Source: Paramacrobiotus metropolitanus (taxonomy: Eukaryota > Tardigrada > Eutardigrada > Parachela > Macrobiotidae). From it: 64,000 bases of DNA. The stretch's first letter is position 1, and the number at the start of each line of letters is the position of its first letter. Position numbers and translations under genes: made by a program. The stretch spans positions 434,001-498,000 of the forward strand of contig NW_026570317.1 in the NCBI RefSeq assembly GCF_019649055.1. The letters run 5' to 3'. The notes beneath the pieces were generated by a model. It saw nothing but the letters and a program-made list of their open reading frames with translations, had not been told where the DNA came from and did no database searches. Positions 29,057 through 53,900 of the stretch are shown piece by piece.

Positions 29057-31893
29057 CTACAAGGCCGTAAATTCATCAACTTGAAGCACATAGTCGCAAC
29101 TATTTTGTCTAATGAAGTTTAGAAATTTGAACAACTCCATTGCAGAACTTCTGTCATTCTTTAGTAAACACAAGCTGCGGCGAACACATTCGGCAATTTC
29201 TGCAGGAATACGGTCATCAACATATGGAATAAAGCCGTCTTCTGCTATTAATTTTATGAACTGACAGTCATCCATTGCGGGTCCAGCTTCCCACTTTTCA
29301 GTTTCTTTCGAAAGCCACTGTTTATGGATCTCCAGTGCACAATTAGCCATCTCCAGGATTATACAACCATAACTCCACATGTCAGATTTCCGTCCAGGAG
29401 TTTCGGAGCCAGTGCAACAAGCTTCTGGAGAACCTCTGGCGCCATATAGCGGATTGTTCCACGAATATGTTGGATGTCGCAAGAACGAGTGTCAAAACGT
29501 TGTAACTGCACGCTATCGTCCAAATCGCCGATTATCATCCGAATCTCCTGTCTGCTAAACCGTGTGAGAATATTTGCTGGTTTTAGATCACCGTGCACGA
29601 TATCGTTGTAATGAAGAAACTGTAAGCCGTCAGCGATTTCCGAAGCGTAACGCACAACTGCTGGACAATCCAGTAACAACTTTGTCGATTCGTCGGTGGA
29701 GACATGTAACCGAATTCTTTTCTGTCGTTCTAAAAGGTCAGACAAATCTCCATCTGTAAATACAAGAAAAACGTTTTCCTGCTGGCATGGCGAAACAACT
29801 TGGTTTCAGATGTTTAGACTCAGGCTATAAAAGCCGGTTTCCTTTTTCAGGATTTTTCAAGCTTTGTTGTAACGGCCCATGATTATGGTGACGGCAGCTC
29901 AACCAAAATGAATCTCCGCTATTTTTTAAATTGTAAAAATGGTTAATAATTTTGACAACCTAAAGACTGCTTTTAGTTTTCGCGGAACATGATTTAAACC
30001 CTGTTTTCTTTCAAATATGCCCTTTCAGTTTCGAGTTTGCAGCCACATTTCAGCGCACCCGGACAACTGGGAGTGTGACATCTGCCGCACTCAAATTCGG
30101 CAAGCGCTTTTTGCCGCGGGACCTACGGACGCTTGGACACTTTGGCTGGGACAATTTGCTTGGAGAAGTTCTCACTTTGCACCATTTTGACGCAAACGAA
30201 TTCGACACGCTCAGTTTTCGATTGCTTTCCTGGCGTTTTCTTAGGTTATCAGATATTCTTTAAGTTTTCTTAGTATTTTTCTTAAGTTTTTTAGGTTTTC
30301 TTGAGTACTCTCAGATATTCTTAGGTTGTATAGGTAAGTGCCTTAACTCTTAAGTTTCATAGTTGTCTTAGGATATGTAGGTTTGTCGGTTTCCTGGACT
30401 GCCTAGGCTTCTGAGGCTTCATCTATTTTTCGGCTTATTTAGTTTTCTTAGGTTTTTAAGTTTTTGCTTTTTTGCTTAGAATTGTTTGACTGTTTTATTG
30501 TGCCTAAAAAAAATCTGCACCATAAAATTTAATAGAAATGCATTTTCGTCGCATAAACGGTCTGGTTGCGAAATGTCTTGCGGCATGCTTCCCTGCCGAC
30601 AAAATGTCTTCTGCGAGACGTCGCGTTGCCATTTTCAGGTGGGTTGGATAGAAACTGGATTTAAACTTCCCAAACTATAGCTGAGGTACTTCAGCACAGG
30701 GTAGTTGCGCGCACAAATGGTTTTTGAACAACTTATGCACTTAATGGTATTCAAGTACTGTATAAAACTACATGCCTATAGCACCAGGAAAAACTTTGGG
30801 AAAAGCGAACGTTTCAGTTGATGCCCACAAAAGTCCCCAGTGTAACGAATGTATATATGTTACAGATAGGACGGTTTGTTTTTAGTGAACAAATTTTCAA
30901 TATGTACAAAATTCGTTGCTCGTTGCTTACCGCAGTAATCCATCATAATTTCGACGAGAGCGCCTCGACTCGCCGCTACTAGTGTAACTTTGTGATAAGT
31001 AACAATGTGTGGATGGTTTAACTCAACGATGGTGTTCATCCGCCGGCACCAAGAGGTCCACTTGTTATTGTCTTCCATTAGCTTTGACTGCGTCTCCAGA
31101 GTTACGACCTTAATTGCGACTGGTTGTTGTTCGTCTCCGGTAAAATTGCCACTCTCTGTGATAACTCCTTCATAAACCGCACCAAAGCTTCCCCCACCAA
31201 GATAGTCCGTGATGCGGTAGCTATAGCGACACGTTCTGCCAAACAGTACAATTTCCTCTGGCTTATTTCCTTCACTCTTGCTTTTTCCAAGAAGCATATT
31301 ATATTTTTCAACAAACTTCATATCCTGCCTCTGTATGACGCAAGTTTTGAACTGGCCCTGTAGAACAAGTTAAAAAATAGCCTGTAGAATAGGTAGACAT
31401 GCAAAACATATTTTGCCAGACGGTCTTTCACATACCCAAAGTCGGTTATAAAGCAGCATCAAATCAGGATCTCCGAGGATTGTGTCGTACACATACGGTG
31501 CTCCTTTTCCTAGGTCAGTTAGCATATCATAAATGCCGCGCATGATGCCTTCTCCGAGAAATTCCTCGTGTTTCCTCTTGTTCATTATGGCAGTGCGAAG
31601 TTTAGTACGGATGAATTCGTGGCACACGATGCAATCCCGAAACATCATAAGAGATAGCTCGTTCATGAGTATTTTTGAGCCTGGGTCGTCCTTTATCTGG
31701 GGACGATATCCCTTATATAAGTAATTTAACCTTGAAAAAACTTTGATTTACCAGTTACCGGGTTGTTACTTTGATTTACCAAATCTTGAATCAGGTTTCC
31801 CATGTGGCACACGGTGAGGCTAAGGCATGTCCATAGCAGACATAAAGCAGACAGAAATTCAGGGTTGGGAAGTAGCGCAATTTCTTTGCATAT
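29057..31893 (-). pseudogene. Cullin-kinase fusion family member, frameshifted
   Basis: Exons on the minus strand: 31893-31780 (114 nt), 31696-31436 (261 nt), 31357-30931, 29753-29057. Borders are GT/AG and phases match through to the last exon. The first two encode cullin-repeat sequence (PNPEFLSALCLLW; MMFRDCIVCHEFIR). The third has the kinase glycine loop (YLGGGSFGAVYEG) and VAIK. The last has HGDLKPANIL, IGDLDDS in place of DFG, YMAPE and PGRKSDMWSYGC. A one-base deletion (or equivalent) near 29405-29420, between APE and GRKSD, breaks the frame, so the product would stop early; a sequencing error is possible. The exons for the first cullin segment were not found. A fold-back element sits directly upstream at 31954-33593. 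Confidence 0.75.
30060..30480 (+). repeat. Low-complexity CTTAGGTTTT repeat in kinase intron
   Basis: Reiterated CTTAGGTTTTCTTAAG-like words at 30235-30480, preceded by a G-rich block (GGACAATTTGCTTGG, CATTTTGACGCA). The same pairing of blocks recurs at about 34545-34980, and reversed at about 35640-35990. Probably parts of one repeat family. Confidence 0.4.
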
Positions 31894-40228: not shown

Positions 40229-41069
40229 TTAAGTGTACCTGGAGTCCATTGTGGGTGAAAGACTAATGCTCGGTGGAGAACTTCGTCTTTCTAGACAGGA
40301 AATTTTCCTCGTGCTGCTCTTATCGTTTATGCAACAGCAGATAGTCAGTGTGATTATAATACTAATCAAGAAGGCGCAACATCCAAGGGAGATCAGGACT
40401 ATCTCTGTAATAAGTGAAAACTTTGCAGTTGCGCATCGCCACCGGTCACCGGACACCTTGTCCGTTAAACACGAAAAACCGCCGTGACACCAAAACCTCT
40501 AAATCCCAGTCCTCTTAAAAACTTACCGTCTCATACAATTTCGTATTAACGTTTTCTCAGTACTCGGACATCGTAACCATAATTCGATCGTTGTCTGGAC
40601 AATATTTTTGGACGGTTTGACAAGCTTTGGTCTTTAGCCGTACGATCGAAACACTCCTCGGAAAGGTGTTTGGTAATCGACGCAGAATTCACTGACCGTT
40701 TGGGTTTCAATTGTCATACCACTGTGTTCAGGTCGACATCAAAGATCCGTTAGGGCTTAAGCTATTTCGTTTTAAACCAGACGGTTTTTCGGTGAAACGG
40801 CCGAAGAGTCAGACGCAAGTCAAATCGTGTAGGTGGGTTTAGTGATTACCTGTCCTATCGATTTGCGTATCGTCCACAGAACCATCGACATAACCATAAC
40901 TGGGTTGCGGGACCGGGATAGGGCTTGGGAACCGATCGAAAAGTTGTGAGTGGTTGCGAACGGGTTGGTGGCCTATCAAATTTTGTGCACTTGGTGGTAA
41001 ACTCCGGCACCGAATCGATGTTGTCCATGCGGCAGAAAGCACCAGTAAAATCAAAACAGTCCTTGTCAT
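40229..41069 (-). CDS. Small type I membrane protein, two exons
   Basis: Exon 1 is 41069-40850 and ends AGG ACA G/GTAATC. Exon 2 is 40404-40229, after ATTACAG. The codon G/AG gives Glu and the phases match, for 131 residues. The N-terminus MTRTVLILLVLSAAWTTS is a signal peptide. A short Pro-rich ectodomain (PSPIPVPQPSYGYVDG) follows. A transmembrane helix at about 76-98 (VLISLGCCAFLISIIITL) is followed by a Cys cluster and a Ser-rich tail of about 30 residues. I do not recognise the family. An extra small exon in the 445-base intron cannot be excluded. Confidence 0.6.
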
Positions 41070-41459: not shown

Positions 41460-41740
41460 TGTTATTGCAAGAATCAAGTTGCGGTTATAAAGCAACGGTG
41501 AATTACGATCTCCAAGAACTGCGTCGTACAAACACGGTGTCCCGTTTCAATATCAATCAGCATTTCATTAATGTCGCGCACAATACCTTCGCCGAGAACT
41601 TGCCCGTGCTGCCGCTTATCCGGCATGGTAACGCGTAGTTCATCGCAGACAATAAGCAGGTTGCGTTTTTGCAAGAAGGCAGCGACTGACGTAGGAATTA
41701 ACGACGGGGTTACAATTAACGAACGTTTAAACGGCAGCAC
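41460..41740 (-). pseudogene. Fragment of cullin-kinase family, cullin exon only
   Basis: Reads ELRVTMPDKRQHGQVLGEG and IVRDINEMLIDIETG, aligning with the 261-nt cullin exon at 31696-31436 (KLRTAIMNKRKHEEFLGEG, IMRGIYDMLTDLGKG). After this a frameshift is needed to continue with YDAVLGD and LLYNR. No kinase exon is seen next to it, so it is a relic. Confidence 0.6.
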
Positions 41741-42307: not shown

Positions 42308-44920
42308 ATGTTCGCATTAATGGATCGCCGATACAGAATGCCGATGGAGCTGCTGCCCATAGAATTTCCAATTTTGAAGCAGCTTCCGCCTTCCGGACCA
42401 CGGATATACCGAGCGCGGGCCATCAATTTTCGAGTAGAGGACAGCTCTTATCATTTATCGGAAGAAAACATGCAGTTTTGGATACAGTGCTTTAGTGACA
42501 GTGTAGACGATCATTCACGCCAAGGGAGACAGCAGATGATGGTCCTTCGCCACTATTTAAACTTTTGACAATTACCTGGTATCTGAATCAGAATTTTAGT
42601 TAAAGATAAAAATGTCGGTTGCACTCATTGCTCGGCTTGGTGCGGTAACTGTCAAATTTAGCTTAACGCAGCTATCACGTAATGTGAAGAGCAAAAATTA
42701 AGAAACTTGCTGTAGTCGTTGTGAATCTCATGATTACACTTGGTTTATGTTATTTTCGCTTATGTAGGACGATTATTATATGCCGAATGAGCGTGGGCTC
42801 TAAATCAATTTAATATTGTAAAATTTTATGTCTACTCCGCTTCAGGTTTGCGATCACCTTCCGCAGACCTCATATACAAATTTCCTTGATAGTTTGAGCA
42901 TGCACTGGATGTGGTTTTACCTTTGCGCAAGACATGTGGGAAGGCTTATCAAAATCGGGGTACGTAAAATGAGTCTAATATAAGCACCGTTGACATTTTC
43001 CCGTAAAGTACGGTCTTGTAAACACAGGACGCCAATCATACCAAAGAACAAATCCGGCAACTTTTCCATTGCGTTAGGATGTTGTTCAGAAATCAGATTA
43101 TGAGCCACGAAGCAGTCCGTAACAAGCTACGTACCATCATGAGGACCGAAACGCGATTCGGCACGCTACTGGATGCGGAGACCAGTGTAATTCATAAGCA
43201 AGTGCGTGGCAGACCTACTACAAGAGCGAGCGAAAACGACGAATATCTCGCAATACTAATTAATGATGATATACTCCGGGACGCATACGAAATGCTCATG
43301 GATCTGGGTGAAGGAACACCTCAAGTTTACGACGCTGTTTGCGAAAATGCGGATCTACTGGTACTCTACGCCCGGCTTTTGGTGCGTCATGGGTCAACCG
43401 CGAACCGCTAAACCATTCTGGAAAAATTCTTCCAAAAGATGTTTTGAGAAACACTAGAAGCGTTTTGTATGTTTCTAGGTGCACGTCCGAAGCTGTATCT
43501 CAACGCAGAGAATCGAGTTTGATTTCATGCATTCGTCGATGCCACTGGTATCTATGGGACAGGTTAGAGCGTGCAGACCACAGGAGACTGTTTTATTCGG
43601 TAGTAAGTGCCAATACCTCTACACAAATGACGATTACCTCGGAGCAGGAAGTTTTGGAACTGTATACGAAGCAATCATAACTGACAGTGGCAATGCCACG
43701 TATGGCAGGCAGCGGTTAATTGTGAAGGTCCAGCCCCGGTAGCCCATGGACAATAATGCAGACTTGATGCAGTGTCCTGGAAAATGGAATAGCTGGTGGC
43801 AAAGACTTGACAAGTTCTGAAACTGAAGCATCCCCTTCTTCTGGCGTGCCATAAGGTTTTCGTTATAATCGCGGCAGGGAAAGCATCGCGTATAGAAATT
43901 CGCATGGATTACTGCGGTTAAGTTCAGGCGCGTGATACTTTGGTTTTCTGGAATCTTAAATATGTGTAGTTTGTGTTTGTCAGACCGCAGTCTAAGCACG
44001 AAGCTGCATTAAGCTTGCTTGATGAGAAATGATTGCACACGCTGCAAGATAGCACAGTAACACTGTACCTTGAGCTACCCTGTGACACTTAACAATTTGC
44101 TGACCGTTATGCTGCTGATTTCAGTACTCGTTAGCCGAAGGATTTTTGAATTGTCCTGTCTTTTTGTGAAACCGCGCTCAACAAGAACTGTAATTTTTAA
44201 TTTTTAGTTGGGGATCTCGCGCGCCTTTTATAACACCACAAGGAAAAGAACACTCTACTTAATTATTCTACAGCCTTGCACTACGTAACCGACATTGCTT
44301 CCGGATTACATTTTCTCCATTATAATGACATCATGCATGGCGATCTAAAGCTCGGAAATATCTTGTTGCAACGGATCGGAATTCAGTATCGACTACTTAT
44401 CGGTGATCCTGACGGCAGCGTACAACTACGACGCTGCTTAACCAGCGCCGGTGACATTGGAAACGTTCGGGGTCACAATCCGCTATACGGCTCCGGAAAT
44501 CCTTGAGCAGTTAACTGGACAAGCAAATCAGGTGGATAAACCTGGACGGAAATCGGATATCTGGAGTTTTGGATGCGTTGTCTTGGATTTGGTAAATTGC
44601 GTTATCGGAAAACATACAAAGTTGCTTTATAAAGAAGAGGAGCGAAAAGAAGTCGGGGTAGGGCGCCAGGATTTCATCTTCATTCAGTTGGTTGTCGAGA
44701 AGGGCTTCTTCCATATGTGGATGATAGTGCTCCAGCAGCTCTGGCCGAATGTATTCGTCGCTGCTTGCGCACGGGAGTCAGTGAGAGAAATTCTGCGAAA
44801 GAGCTAATAACCTTTCTGCAAACAGGTACGTATCAGTTTGCACACTTTCTTTTAACACGAGTTTCGAAGATGCTTCCCATGTTTTTCTTTTGTGCAGAGG
44901 TGGCTTGTGCTCCGGAATGA
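42308..44920 (+). pseudogene. Cullin-kinase fusion family member, degenerate
   Basis: Exon-like blocks: 42308-42568 (RARAINFRVEDSSYHLSEE, like the cullin-3 N-terminus), 42846-42959 (114 nt), 43028-43381 (the cullin exon with a 31-codon insertion), 43479-43916 (glycine loop YLGAGSFGTVYEA), 44208 to about 44830 (HGDLKLGNILL, PGRKSDIWSFGC). Lesions seen: TAG at 43740-43742; a frame change within the same exon; TAA at 44231-44233; a one-base insertion near 44475 and a one-base deletion near 44705. IGDPDGS replaces IGDLDDS. The second cullin exon (the segment ending KHG) was not found. Blocks and splice sites are otherwise in the family's order, so this is a decayed duplicate. Confidence 0.8.
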
Positions 44921-46138
44921 CGCATGAGTACCTCGGCAATGAAAATCGTGGAAAAGGTTCAACGGATCATCAGCCTTGCACTTCACGGGATATGACGCTC
45001 ATTTTGAATTTTATAGGCTATCATCAATTTGGTACAACTTGTAAAACAGAGAAAACGGCTTGGTCATGTCAGACTTTTCTAGTTCATAAAACGCGGTGAG
45101 TGAAAGCTGGAAGCAAAACATTCCGACCTACGGTACCTGTCTTTAACATCTTTAAAACCGAAGCGTCAAATCATCTACGTATATACTGCCGAGTGCCGAC
45201 TAAGATTACAATCATAACTTCTGCGCAGTGAAAGCTTTCCTTGGTATGATTGTTGATGCAAAACTGTAGACGTAAAAATTTTGCTGTCAAAGATAATAAT
45301 AAGATTTAGCATGATTTTCGTCGAATCTTGTTATTTCGAGACATTAAAACGTTTCTGTAAAACATTAAATTAAAAACCCCGTCACTGCAGCTTTGATTTT
45401 TACAACAGAGTGACTGTCGGTGCTTACGGATCGAGTTATTAACGATACGTTTTAGAAGATGGCTGCGTCTACCATTAGGACGATGAGCATAACAATGTTA
45501 TGTCAAAATGGTAATAATTATTACGTTCAACAAGCCGACTAACAAGGAAGGGTAAGCAGTGTGCCATTCAGCCGTCTACTGCTTTTAAGTTACTGTAGCT
45601 GATTTTGTGGAAAAAACGTGTGGAAAGCACGAATACATTTAAGTGGTGGTCGTACGTATGCAAACTGGCGCAGTCAGTATCCAGTTTTAGGCTGCACTTT
45701 GAACGCAGCGACACAAGCAAGCGTGTTTTCGCAGCTGATACGAGGTACCATCGCTCAGTCGGCTAGCGTGAGCAGAATAACACTACTGTACTACGACCTG
45801 TTTTAAAGTCCGTACTACTTTTTTCTTCTTGATATTACTATAGTAATTAGTGCCTGTGAACAATTTGCAAAACCTACCAGCGCAATGAGCACGAAAGGAA
45901 CATCTGGTTGAGCAAAGCACTCACATTTCTTTGTAATCAACTCATAAACGTGTAAATTTACTATAAATGTCTAAGCTGAAAGACTAGATTTAATTAGACC
46001 ACACTATATTTAGTATTGCTGGGTAAAAAACCTGATGCTATGTATTTAGATAGCTTAATTACGGAAATACGGCTAGTTAACAACCTGGTAGTTGTAGTGA
46101 AAGTTTAAAGTGGTTAACGAAAAAATTAGCAACAGTTT
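44921..46138. other. No gene seen
   Basis: Intergenic DNA between the two plus-strand family members, probably holding the promoter and 5' end of the intact copy. The first exon of that copy could not be fixed. Confidence 0.4.
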
Positions 46139-49100
46139 TTGAGCTGGCTCAGCAGACGCAAGCCTACCGTCAGCACTGACGAACCTGATGAGAGGAAGGG
46201 CGCTTCCCAATCTCTGCGAGCTCGCGATGGCCCTGAATGCCTAAACCGTTCAACACCACGAAGACGTCCCGAAAACTTATTGCAACCATGGGAACATCTG
46301 CGGATAAACGAGCTACCATCGGTAAGAATAGAATCCGTGAGAATTATTTTGCAATAAAAAGTCAGTTATTACAACTGCGTAACAGGTATTCATTGACGGC
46401 TTGCACTTTGTCAGAAGACTTTCTTCAAGAATTTACATTAAGTCGGTAATAGAGCGTCTGTACTTTAATCACTTCAACGAATATACCTATTTCTGAGTAC
46501 CTGAGTTTGTATGAACAATTTTCAAAGTAGAGAATTGCAGGTTGCAGGCTTCAGAGGAGAAAATTGGAGTACGTTTTATAATTTTCGTGACGAACCTCCC
46601 AGTTTAATTCTACATTTTGCAGTTATCAAGTGCACAGTTATCAAATGCGCTGTGGACTAAGGAGACCAGGCAAGTGTCGATGACCCACAAAACCAACGGG
46701 CGACGTTATGAGGACCTGTTATATTTTACCTACGCAATTGTTGTACTCAAGCACGGTGCAGAACTGTTCGAACTTTTGGAGGGGCCCGTTGTTGACTACC
46801 TCACACAGGTGTGTACAGCATCAACTAATTTGATTTAAGCTTTATCTAAATTCTAAGACAAGTAGTTCTAAGGCAAAATTTGTCATTCGGAGTTGTGGAC
46901 TAAGGGAAACCATGCAATAATTCGCAAATTGACGCACGTTAGCTTAGCATAAGTTTAACGTGGAATGCAAGGTACCTCTGTACAAGCCGAGTTCACGGTA
47001 ACCCGAAAGCCGAAATGACTCAAATTATTGTTACGTAGTCTGGGCAGTATTAGCTACTTACGTGCGCAATGTCACCCGGTGAACGAATGCACATACCTAA
47101 AAGTGATGAAGAAGTGTTCTTTTACATGAACGTACTTGTGCTTGGTACTTAAACGTTACTGTTCATGAAAAGGATAATGAACCAGTGTTGATCGCGTTCT
47201 TTATTAAAACCTCAAATTTATTCACTCTGGCGCATGCAGCCAACCTGTTTATGTGATCAGGTTCGCAAAGATGTTACTCAGCCTTCCGAAGACGAGTTTC
47301 TTGCTGTTTTAAGTGCGACGTGGAACAATTTTAAAACAGGTTTATCCCTCATCAAACTTACTACGCTGTATATGGTAAGTTCAGTACGCTAGCCTAAATA
47401 AAAAACGTACTCGAGCCGTTTGCTACTGAATTCGTACAGGACAAAGTTTTTGTCGGACTTAATGACTTGGACAGCACCGAAAATTTGGGTATTCGGATTT
47501 TTCGAGATACTATCGTTTACCATGAAGGCGTCCGTGAAAGAGTGCGATTGGGTATGTTGGATAACCAACGACGAGTCGCGGTCGATACCGTTGCTCTGCG
47601 CAGTGTCTACGAAATGCTGATCGATCTCGGCAAAGGAACTGTTGACGTTTACCAGGAAATTTGCGAACACCCTTTTTTAGCGCATTATGCCCACCTTTTG
47701 GTAAGCATGAATATGTGACGCTCATTTGTGTTAATGGTGATAGAAAGTGACCTTTAGGGCAAAGTTAAACACTACTTGATGCAAAGCCAAATCACGGACA
47801 TTCTGCAGTCACCCGATCAGGTTTCACTCACCAACGTCCAGACTGCGTCACAGGAGATTGTCCTATTCGGCAGTACGTGCCGCTATAGCTACAACAACAG
47901 CGGTTATCGGGGAGCGGGTACATTTGGCGCAGTGTTTGCAGCAACTGCAACCATCGGCGCATCAGAAACACGTGTCGCTGTGAAAGTCATGCCGATGCAT
48001 AACGATGCAGACCTGGTTAATAACACTGAAAAGTGGAATACCTGGTGCCGACGGCTCCAAACAGTCTTGGAACTTGTCCACCCCCATGTTATAAAATACC
48101 ACGCGGTCAACGTAATCACGGCTAGCTGTGGTGCACGCATTGAAATTGTGATGGATTACTGTGGTAAGTGTTAGACGAGGACGATAGCCGCAGTTCAAAC
48201 GTTTTCGCCATTTGACAGTGTCTTAGAAATACTCAACTGCGTTTCCAGTCTCTTTGTTGCGCGCCTTCCTCAGCAGTAGCAGCTACCTTAAGTCAGCAGA
48301 TGAATAAAAAATTTCCTTTCATCAACATCCTTTGTCTATTACCCGCTTGCGTATTTGTCTCTGAAATCAGCTTCTACAGATATAATCAGGAACTTACTAT
48401 AGCTAGAAGGACTGTCGACTACGTCATCACTGTCGCATACAGAAAGCAGTGTCAAAGCACTGCTGTGCTAATGCTTTCCATAGCCCACAGACTTTGTTGA
48501 CCCTTTTAATAGATATTCTGAAGTTCCTTTCTCATCGAAAGCTTTCTGATATTTTTAAAAGATCATATTGAACATAGGAACCTTTATTTCGGGGGCTAAA
48601 GTAGAAGAGAAGAGAAATCGGCTGAGAAAACTGGCAAAAACCGTGAAAAACGCGCATCTGTCACCATGGCAGCCGCCCTCCCGTGTATGCGAGAGTGATG
48701 ACGTCAAACGGTTGGTTACCAGTACTCCTCACACTATAGTAAGTACTTGATATAATTTACAATATGTATTTATTTGTACAGCAAGAAATAATATTAATTT
48801 TTATATGACTGGTGGGAAATTTTTTTGGCGGCTGCTTCTTCTGTAAGCCCTTAGAAAAAGCTTTCGGACCAGAAAATCTGGGTATAACGGCAACTAAGCA
48901 AAACCTAAGAAACTTCTTCAATAATATCAACCAAAACGACTATTTCGATTTGCAGCTGGGGATCTTTCACTTTTATTATCGCGGCATTATCTTGCTGTGA
49001 GGAAGGATATGCTGTTGGACAATCCAACAGCCGTGCGTTATGCAACGGAAATCGCTGACGGATTGAACTTTCTGCATTTCAATAAACTCATACATGGAGA

Positions 49101-49620
49101 TTTGAAGCCTGCAAACATCCTGGTACGGTCCAGCGGGAGAAAATGCGAGATGCTGATTGGTGATCTGGATGACAGTGTGCAATTACGACGCTTCATGACT
49201 TTTTCTGACGAACTGTCTCATGTTCGCGGTACTGTCCGCTACATGGCTCCGGAGATTCTTAAGAAATTTATCGCACAAAAAGCAAGCGAATCCCCGGGAC
49301 GCAAGTCTGACATTTGGAGCTACGGCTGCGTGATACTGGATTTGGCAAATTGTGTTGCGAAGGTAGAGAAGAAGAGGCTATACAAAGAGTCTCAAATAAT
49401 CGAAGCCGGAAAAGAAGTATCAGACTTTCAGTTTATTCAGCTGATTGTCGAAGACGGCTTTGTTCCGTACCTTGATGGTTCTATTCCGGAAACTCTGCAT
49501 GAATGCATTCGGCGCTGCTTAGTCAGCGTAAAAGATGCTAGAAGTTCAGCTGCCGAAATACTGGAATTCTTGAAGGATGCAGAGCGTGCTGTGCAGCCGT
49601 CCTGTGGCCAGATTTTGTAA
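46139..49620 (+). CDS. Cullin-3-like N-terminal domain fused to protein kinase (intact copy)
   Basis: Exons: a tentative 46139-46321, then 46623-46808, 47261-47374, 47440-47700, 47758-48163, 48956-49620 (stop). From 46623 on, every border is GT/AG and every phase matches, giving 543 residues plus an unresolved N-terminus. The cullin part aligns with human cullin-3: NGRRYEDLLYFTY with VVLKHG (cullin-3 FEELYRNAYTMVLHKHG), then EDEFLAVLSATW, YMDKVFV and ENLGIRIFRDTIV (cullin-3 YNLGLIIFRDQVV). In cullin-3 this region binds BTB adaptors. The kinase part has GAGTFGAVF, VAVK, HGDLKPANIL (no Arg before Asp, so non-RD), IGDLDDS for DFG, YMAPE and PGRKSDIWSYGC, so catalysis is plausible; the style is STE/MAP3K-like. 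The cullin C-terminal half that binds Rbx1 and NEDD8 is absent. Likely role: a kinase recruited to BTB-bound clients, by inference only. Confidence 0.82.
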
Positions 49621-50952: not shown

Positions 50953-53900
50953 CTAACACGCTTTAATCCCTGGGCTCATCGGGGATCCCAGAGGACAGTT
51001 GTAAGACGCCCCGAAATCTGGGCTGTTTATGTACGGTCCCATTACACGAAATCGAAACGGTGAGTGAGTTTCGTCGACTAATCCTGGTGGACGGATGCAC
51101 CATGCCTGAAAAACATGGTTGCGCAATTTTCTAACCAGTTTTCTAATTTTCTAACAAATACCACCTGAGCTCCAGTTAACCAGAACAGCTGCTTCTCATC
51201 CATGGTTTCTAACCCGGGTAGCGTTATGCGGTATCCAGTGCGACGCATAAAATTACGAAAAGCCTGCAGAAGTATCATTCTTTGTGCATTTTGTGACGAG
51301 AATTTAAATTCTTCAAATTACTAACCAAAAAAGCAGCCTGGAATCCGCCGTTGTCGGCAGTGTTCTCGATGAGAGTTTGCCGTCCATCGACACTGACGTT
51401 CTTCGTGCTAATACTGTTGTAGAAATCCACCAAAGTGTAGTTTCTCGCGTTATAATTGTTCTGCGTCGTATCGGTCCACCACTTAAGAGGTTTGCCGTCG
51501 TTCCCAAGTTCTTTCACTATGCACAAAATTTTTAATTATTAACCCACTAGAACAGAACAGTATTTCTCTTTTAAGAAATCGAAACATGCCTTCGATATCG
51601 ATAATATGGGTGAATTCGTGGCCAATGAGAAAACCCATGCGAGCGTAGTCCAAAATGTCCATGTCGCTTGCGTAAAACATTGGTGTCTGTACTACGGCCG
51701 CCGGAATAACTGCAACGCCGACAAAATTATGGTCTCATCTAATTATCAAATGCTTGTCACTTAACTTTCGACGCACTCAGCAGAAACGAATAATATTAAA
51801 TGAGAAGTACGAAACGAAATGAGAAGTAGAAATTTAAAGGTAAAAATATTGTTCAGAAGCACTATAGTAACTGATAACAAATTAATGCGACAAATCTGTC
51901 AACAGCTTTCTAAGCCTACTTCTTACGACCGAAGGTAACCGTATACATAAAGAATAAGGATTCCAAAAATAACGCTGGGAATTAACGAGCTAGCAACATA
52001 CCAATATAACGGTTTTGAGTGTAGGTTTCGAGGGTTACCAAGGTCCTATCGGCCGGAAAGAACGGATCGTTGCGGGCGTTTGTGCGAGAGAGTCTTTGCA
52101 GGTTGATCCAGCTGTTGCTTTGACCGATGGTGCGCAGTGTGTCGAAGAATGACATTTCCACTTGAATCTGCAAACATAATGGCATTCGCTTCAGTGCATT
52201 TCATGGTAATTGTACTTGTAGACACTGCATACAGTGAAATTACGTGCCGGTGTACTTCATACGAATTTGAAACGATTTTTTTCACTCTATTTATCAGTAA
52301 CTGTGTCCACACTTTAGAGCTTGTCTCAAAAGAAAACCTTTCTTGCCCCATCCTGTTTTACTTTATTGTACAACTCCCGCTTTTAAAATTTCTTTTTCTA
52401 TGAAAGGCGATGCGCCATGGTTGACTAGCCCTTGTGTAGTAGTTATCCAAGAGCGTCCAATTCTCCACCAACTCCTCGGGAAAACCAACGTTCAGTAGTG
52501 TATCATTCAGCCTGTCCATGGCCGCTTCCTTCGTTGTCTGGTCCATCCAGGGCGTCTTGAGAAGGACTGCATCGCGAACTGCGTTGGCAATTTCAGATGC
52601 CAGCACTTTTGCCTGAAAATATGTAGTCGCTATTGTTTTTAATCGTTTTTATTGGGTTTTATGTATTTTTGCATGCAGTAGTTCTTGAGGTTTTCTGTTT
52701 CGTGATTAAATTCTGTTCTCAAGACCCCCTTTTGGGGTCGACCAACTTCGCCTTTGCCGTTTCAGTTTGCCGTTTTCAACTTTACCTATGCCGGCGGAAA
52801 AGCCGTTGGCATTCTAATTTGCCGTTTCAAAACGTTTTTCTTTATACGTTTATATGTATTAATATAACGCCTTCGTATGGAGAAGACATATGTGGGATTC
52901 CCACAATGGGAAGACTAAGTCACTAAAGTAAAAAGTATAAAGAAAAAACAGCACAAGAGAAGTTCGAAAATGGCAACGTGTTAACAGTAATTCGTTCTCC
53001 AAACGGAAAAGGCTTTTAAATACGGCGTTTTGAAACGGCAAATTAGAATGTCAACGGCTTTTCCGCCGGCAAAGGAAAAGGTAAAGTTGAAAACGGCAAA
53101 CTGAAACGGCAAAGGGAAATAGACGGTAAAGGCGAAGTTGGCCGACCCACCTTTTGAACCGCTTTCTTTGGTATATATGTCTTAAAGAACATTCCCGATA
53201 CGGTCAACGGCATGGCCGCTTTAACCAGCCCCACGCAGATGTCCGTTACTCGATATATAAGGTGGTAGTGATTGACGGCGGTCCACCACAACCAATCAGC
53301 CAGTGTCGTCAGTCCCGCATCCCCGTCGCCTTCCAGCTGAGCCATCGTCTGATCTAGATTGAGGAGGTATTCAAACTGATCAGGAACCGCAAGCTGCGTA
53401 GCGGTTGTGGCTTGATAGTTTATCGAAGAAGCTTTAAGCATCGCGTTAAACAGGTGCAAAAAGCTTGATAGAAACTGCGAGCGGAATGGTGGTCTAGAAA
53501 GATCACCGAAGGTTAGGCGCTCTCGATAATACACCGGTCCTGTTGGCCCCTAAAAATTATTGATTTTAAAAATTACGAGAAAACAAAAACTAAGAAGGAA
53601 AGAATGAATTTAAGTAAATCGGCAACCAAAACAATCGAAAGGTGGAAAATAAAAGACTAAATATAACTGAGTGAAAACAAAAACTCTCGTAAAATAAAAT
53701 AAACTTTAGTGCAGAAATGCGATAACAAACCGAAATTAAACATTTAGAAAATATTTTAACACGAGTATATTTTGAAAATGTTCCTTCAGAGGAAATAAAT
53801 AACTGCCTTCCAGACAAGGACGCTAACAGTACATGCCTAAAAGACCTCGGATGAATAGAATTTATAGAGAGATATCATTCTGGAACGCAGCTGTCACCTT

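Follow-up and report, generated by a model that had tools for sequence, protein, structure and literature searches.

How could a protein that begins as the front of cullin-3 come to end as a protein kinase, and what might such a protein do? The question is raised by a gene in a 64,000-nucleotide stretch of the genome of the tardigrade Paramacrobiotus metropolitanus (the window; positions 434001-498000 of contig C97 in the 169.8 Mb assembly G000, on which all genome scans were run). Its spliced product of 524 residues, P0001, is identical to a database protein of this species named "MAP3K3-like". Cullins are the scaffolds of ubiquitin ligases, and the N-terminal module of CUL3 binds BTB adaptors. 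An original prediction, made from the letters of the window, had proposed a cullin-3-like N-terminal domain fused to a kinase, and both parts were recovered by profile and structure-database searches. Judged from the genome sequence, the fusion is real, recurrent and under selection.

The first point to settle is whether the front of the protein is a cullin, and if so, which one. Searched against Pfam, P0001 matches Cullin over residues 3-170 (E 4.3e-20) and Pkinase over residues 220-507 (E 1.9e-33); the profile check that had been proposed for the spliced protein thus returned a cullin match rather than none. The Cullin match, over profile positions 14-189 of 620, places repeat 1 at the start of the protein. 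The C-terminal cullin homology region, the Rbx1/NEDD8 half, is absent and a kinase occupies the C-terminal end, as had been foreseen. At E<=1e-20, all 14 of the distinct PDB sequences found with P0001 are named cullin-3 (cullin-3 at E 2.8e-23), the paralogue P0003 retrieves the same 14 of 14, and the exon at 47440-47700 searched alone finds cullin-3 at E 1.2e-08. The homology extends over CUL3 residues 49-216, residue 5 of P0001 aligning with CUL3 residue 49, and 58 of 168 residues are identical to the PDB CUL3, taken as human. A tree of nine sequences, six fusion proteins and three CUL3s, separates the fusions from the CUL3s with support of 100/100, P0007 and P0008 forming long branches; since it contains no other cullin type, it is the PDB searches and the introns described below that carry the CUL3 assignment. 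A scan of the genome with PF00888 gave 40 matches, none of them on contig C97; it also misses the fusion's own short cullin exons there, and as a negative for the missing C-terminal half it is no more than supporting. By these comparisons, the N-terminal ~170 residues correspond to repeat 1 of a cullin-3 together with the beginning of repeat 2. Unlike CUL3, the fusion ends after the first part of repeat 2, lacks the Rbx1/NEDD8 half and has a kinase attached.

How well defined is the gene? On the forward strand, joining 46808 to 47261, 47374 to 47440, 47700 to 47758 and 48163 to 48956 gives a single open frame whose translation matches P0001 exactly, which bears out the phase-matched exons that had been proposed. 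Cullin exon 1 (46680-46808, residues 1-43) covers the region of the BTB-facing helix alpha-2. It is followed by exon 2 (47261-47374; 114 nucleotides, phase 0/0, VRKDV...LYM) and by exon 3 (47440-47700; phase 0/0, DKVFV...AHLL), the last cullin exon, whose best PDB matches are cullin-3. A 57-nucleotide GT-AG intron (47701-47757) then marks the border between cullin and kinase, at the position of a CUL3 intron. Beyond it lie an exon for the linker and the kinase N-lobe (47758-48163), where the Pkinase match begins at residue 220 and which holds the glycine loop, the beta-3 Lys 244 and the alpha-C region (alignment A2, below), and an exon running from the hinge to the C-lobe and the stop codon (48956-49620), with HGD at 350-352, DLD at 373-375 and APE at 401-403 as placed by Pfam, translation and alignment.

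At the 5' end, the database model begins at the ATG at 46680, and the frame upstream is open to acceptors giving 46623 or 46638. The cullin exon start at 46623 that had been predicted fits the frame and an AG acceptor, but the second acceptor and the database start compete with it. The predicted gene start at 46139 has no in-frame start codon; the only in-frame ATG found upstream is at 46040, and then come stops. An additional 5' exon ending at 46321 is likely, because the stretch 46285-46336 matches the region of the 5' coding exon of P0003 (locus L017) at 81% identity (E 2.6e-08). The 3' part of this probable coding exon (46285-46321, forward strand) reads PWEHLRINELPS, is followed by a phase-0 donor and lies outside the database model.

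A related question is where the cullin exons came from. The species' own CUL3 gene on C62 (L012) is close to the PDB CUL3 stretch, agreeing with it at 128 of 173 residues; a second, divergent CUL3-like gene on C202 (L013) agrees at 76 of 173. Three phase-0 introns are common to the fusion and to both of these genes, in which splice sites were placed by homology and GT/AG. They flank the 114-nucleotide exon, which P0003, P0004 and both CUL3 genes have at the matching position, and fall at the fusion border, where the intron is preceded by EFFR (CUL3a), AYFR (CUL3b) or AHLL (fusion). P0003 and P0004 have the same exon layout, and their exons reproduce the database proteins exactly, including the first mini-exon of P0003. 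From the intron positions shared with the species' CUL3 genes, we infer that genomic exon shuffling brought CUL3 exons together with a kinase gene. A retrocopy of CUL3, which was also considered, is ruled out by the same introns, as placed by homology and GT/AG.

Is this a single event in one gene, or does the design recur? With the cullin part of P0003 as the query, the genome gave 17 matches at E<=0.1. Three true cullin genes (C62, C66, C202) account for some of these; the rest lie at eight loci at which the cullin stretch is continued by a kinase exon. Three of the eight are in the window, and the others are on C1 (P0003), C69 (P0004), C7 (P0002), C314 (P0007) and C32, the last without a matched database protein; the cullin matches on C32 and C314 are weak for a threshold of 0.1 (E 7e-5 and 0.005). 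Besides P0001, the window holds a broken second copy (43064-44902, forward strand), where the tblastn matches of P0001 and P0008 lie in several frames and contain stops, and a third gene on the reverse strand, that of P0008 (LOC129596871; 29060-34324, tblastn of P0008 and P0001), whose database exons reach 41069. In the P0008 gene the reading frame shifts inside the kinase near 29410, close to where the database protein stops. By eye, the putative exons at 40238-41069 of its database model, several kb upstream, show a signal-peptide-like start and a membrane segment. There is also a degraded cullin-only fragment (41481-41653, reverse strand; tblastn of P0008, two frames, E 1.6e-07), and elsewhere, upstream of P0004, positions 157-649 of locus L018 hold the remnants, with stops, of a further cullin-kinase copy.

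These loci bear on the plainest objection, namely that a gene finder joined a cullin fragment to an unrelated kinase gene. The database name, which refers to the kinase only, would agree with such an artefact. Against it, the 57-nucleotide intron leaves little space for a separate promoter, and the same order is found at eight loci, one of them broken; for these reasons a mis-joined model is scarcely credible. The database models of P0001, P0003 and P0004 also share the same phase-0 cullin/kinase border, and a two-gene artefact was rejected on these three grounds. The database model, the short intron and the repeated order also tell against cullin and kinase exons sitting on separate RNAs.

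The cullin part can also be followed among the kinases themselves. A profile built from three fusion cullin parts and three CUL3s detects it in 6 of 33 proteins of the kinase family. The members outside its build are found at E 1.4e-31 (P0002), 1.1e-17 (P0008) and 1.3e-14 (P0007), and the best of the other 27 at 0.071, these values being those of a search of 33 sequences. With a CUL3-only profile the single-sequence probabilities are 97% for P0002, 83% for P0008 and 8% for P0007, which is not convincing by itself. The cullin parts of all three lie below Pfam Cullin detection, and those of P0007 and P0008 are 23% and 30% identical to that of P0001. A quick tree was built from 38 kinase domains of the 33 proteins, two kinase pieces, in P0122 and P0123, being left out as short or weak. 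In it the six cullin-kinases stand on one side of a branch (SH-like approximate likelihood-ratio support, SH-aLRT, 99), and a careful nine-row tree agrees with this grouping (100/99). A single origin of the cullin-kinase fusion is the simplest reading of these trees.

What kind of kinase is it? The ~310 C-terminal residues carry the Pkinase profile and a kinase fold, and the listed matches of a fold search of P0001 are taken up by the kinase, in rows spanning 161-518. The nearest PDB kinases are a PKR/NEK7-type chain, MAP3K5, MAP3K2, NEK7 and CDK8, at E 3e-15 to about 1e-13; membership of MAP3K, as the database name implies, is unsupported, these weak matches being spread over kinase groups. 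Within the genome, P0001 gives 98 matches that resolve into at least 80 matching loci on 49 contigs, where same-strand matches less than 3 kb apart were joined, 82 of 722 candidates were scored and loci were counted by match alone.

Like other eukaryotic Ser/Thr kinases, the fusion kinase keeps most of the catalytic residues. In alignment A2 (30 rows), the beta-3 Lys (K244) is present in 29 rows with one gap, and the catalytic Asp (D352), Lys354, N357 and the metal-binding Asp (D373) are present in 30 of 30 each. It departs from them elsewhere. The alpha-C Glu site, placed by sequence alignment only, is Arg in 23 rows, Lys in two, Gly, Ser or Leu in one each and a gap in two, so that Arg stands in 23 of the 28 lettered rows and Glu in none; the HRD Arg is Gly in 28 of 30 and Ala in two, and DLD replaces DFG throughout. 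Twenty loci that were fetched proved to be 18 distinct genes, of which 17 have HGD and 15 have HGD together with DLD (one has DMD, one DLG and one no motif). So uniform a departure suggests an active site that may be re-wired rather than dead.

The same residues can be read the other way. P0001 might be a pseudo-cullin decoy, which would occupy BTB adaptors and lower cullin-3 ligase activity while its pseudokinase served as an ATP-sensing or scaffolding fold. The missing Rbx1/NEDD8 half, the altered alpha-C, HRD and DFG positions and the hydrophobic BTB-face positions of P0001 all fit such a decoy. What speaks against it is the retention of Lys244 in 29 of 29 lettered rows and of the other four catalytic residues in every row, which a pseudokinase need not keep, and the purifying selection on the kinase part. 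This makes the decoy unlikely.

Selection was measured on the two halves separately. The ratio of nonsynonymous to synonymous divergence (dN/dS) in the cullin part is 0.28 [0.18-0.43] for P0001-P0003, 0.30 for P0001-P0004 and 0.36 for P0003-P0004; in the kinase part the same pairs give 0.27, 0.24 and 0.22. These ratios indicate that purifying selection acts on the cullin half and on the kinase half.

The halves need not share one history. Between P0001 and P0003, identity is 67% for the cullin part and 44% for the kinase; the order is reversed in P0003-P0004 (50% and 66%) and in P0001-P0002 (38% and 64%). For P0001-P0003, synonymous divergence (dS) is 0.71 [0.50-1.02] in the cullin part against 1.93 [1.27-saturated] in the kinase, ranges that do not overlap; P0001-P0002 differ in the opposite direction with overlapping ranges, several other pairs are saturated, and P0007 and P0008 were left out of these counts. 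In topology tests the kinase data reject the pairing of P0001 with P0003 (p 1e-6), but the cullin data do not reject the pairs of the kinase tree (P0003 with P0004, p 0.11; P0001 with P0002, p 0.17), and the case for exchange therefore rests on the synonymous distances. That the cullin cassette was later exchanged or converted among paralogues is moderately supported.

What, then, does the cullin part do for the kinase? We favour, at a probability of about 0.45, a reading in which it docks BTB proteins (BTB-Kelch, MATH-BTB) and the tethered kinase has the adaptor, its cargo or the CUL3 complex as substrate. Of the two functions suggested by the original prediction, this takes up the phosphorylation of clients brought by BTB adaptors; the other was a decoy competing with cullin-3. 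Phosphorylation would be given where CUL3 would give ubiquitin, and competition with CUL3 through occupancy of the adaptors would be a side effect. BTB domains are numerous in the genome, with at least 150 matches, all over the cut-off (150 scored of 1033 candidates). Many of these are clustered, for example on C70, C132, C8 and C59, and one kinase-family match lies inside the C132 cluster.

Docking itself is plausible for P0001, and several points weigh against it or against the activity of the kinase. According to passages of PMC3616122 and PMC6484134, four CUL3 residues, F54, Y58, Y62 and L66, are spaced along helix alpha-2, and a fifth, Y125, forms a hydrogen bond. The corresponding residues of P0001 are Y, L, Y, V and Y, five of five hydrophobic and two of five identical, which is not above background, as 47 of 62 other hydrophobic positions are likewise hydrophobic in P0001. 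The five sites read YSYSY in P0003, AMF-Y in P0004 and SVLLL in P0002, and Arg replaces CUL3 Ser53 in P0001 and P0003. A kinase without the alpha-C Glu, the HRD Arg and the DFG Gly is, moreover, of uncertain activity.

Such variation raises the possibility that the cullin segment has moved away from BTB binding and become a helical spacer, or a dimer or docking unit for other partners. The varying contact residues among the paralogues fit this, as do the low identities of P0007 and P0008, the three cullin parts below Pfam detection and the 8% of P0007 alone. Drift is harder to reconcile with the 67% identity and constrained dN/dS of the P0001 and P0003 cullin parts and with the exon borders, which have been kept the same; we consider it rather improbable.

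Another question concerns the wider family and its other domains. By precomputed Pfam assignments, with nine proteins re-scanned, Kelch-type repeats are found in 11 of the 33 proteins, Hsp70 in two and Amidase_2 in one (P0024), and in the same precomputed assignments a BTB domain is found in none. Kelch repeats are the substrate module of the BTB-Kelch adaptors of CUL3 ligases, which these kinases resemble in this respect and differ from in the missing BTB domain. By eye, P0024 has a probable membrane segment, and some members carry two or three kinase domains in tandem. Every match above 111 bits was named P. metropolitanus (among the best 120 of 218 and the best 120 of 1178 listed), including all the best relatives of the fusion kinase, which is weak evidence of species restriction, as the full-length protein searches take up a candidate only where exact words are shared. 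Searching with the cullin part alone, as a region, gave two matches, both P. metropolitanus, and missed even CUL3, so that absence elsewhere is not demonstrable from it.

Could the whole family be a defence system? Fast-duplicating kinases might carry copies of attacked host proteins (CUL3, Kelch, Hsp70), so that an attack would trigger kinase signalling. Such integrated decoys are proposed for plant kinase fusion proteins; this group, together with the plant tandem kinases (e.g., Sr43, Lr9), likewise is expanded and has varied extra domains. The some 80 matching loci with their broken copies, the range of added domains including Kelch, Hsp70 and the Amidase_2 of P0024, and the discordant ages of the cullin and kinase parts would suit the idea. 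Yet dN/dS is well below 1, where an arms race should speed change at some sites, and the plant proteins were compared with the tardigrade family by architecture alone; we judge the defence explanation distinctly unlikely.

A broader version of the docking reading is tentative and somewhat doubtful: a parallel, phosphorylation-based cullin-3 system of this tardigrade lineage, in which a kinase family of about 80 loci, its active site re-wired (alpha-C Arg, HGD, DLD), would have captured the CUL3 front in one branch and Kelch in others and kept exchanging cullin and kinase cassettes, with clients selected by BTB or Kelch domains being phosphorylated, not ubiquitinated.

The original prediction had held that no cullin-kinase fusion was described, and none was found among the open-licence papers listed in the literature searches. 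The main text of the species' genome paper (PMC8277472) and that of a transcriptome paper mention neither kinase nor cullin, and a survey of hybrid kinases has no mention of cullin, kelch, hsp70 or btb. Elsewhere in the window, 51275-51734 (reverse strand) holds gene pieces of peptidase family M13 (neprilysin-like; E 2e-09 and 9e-07).

What does the fusion mean for this animal? Whole-exon shuffling has parted the adaptor-binding end of cullin-3 from the catalytic end and placed it in front of a kinase, and the recurrence of the joined design suggests that part of the protein-destruction machinery was turned into a signalling enzyme in this animal. The family is also a test case for kinases without the alpha-C Glu, the HRD Arg and the DFG Gly. 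If BTB binding is true, CUL3 adaptors would be re-usable for phosphorylation, and these proteins would offer a natural template for bringing kinases to BTB clients.
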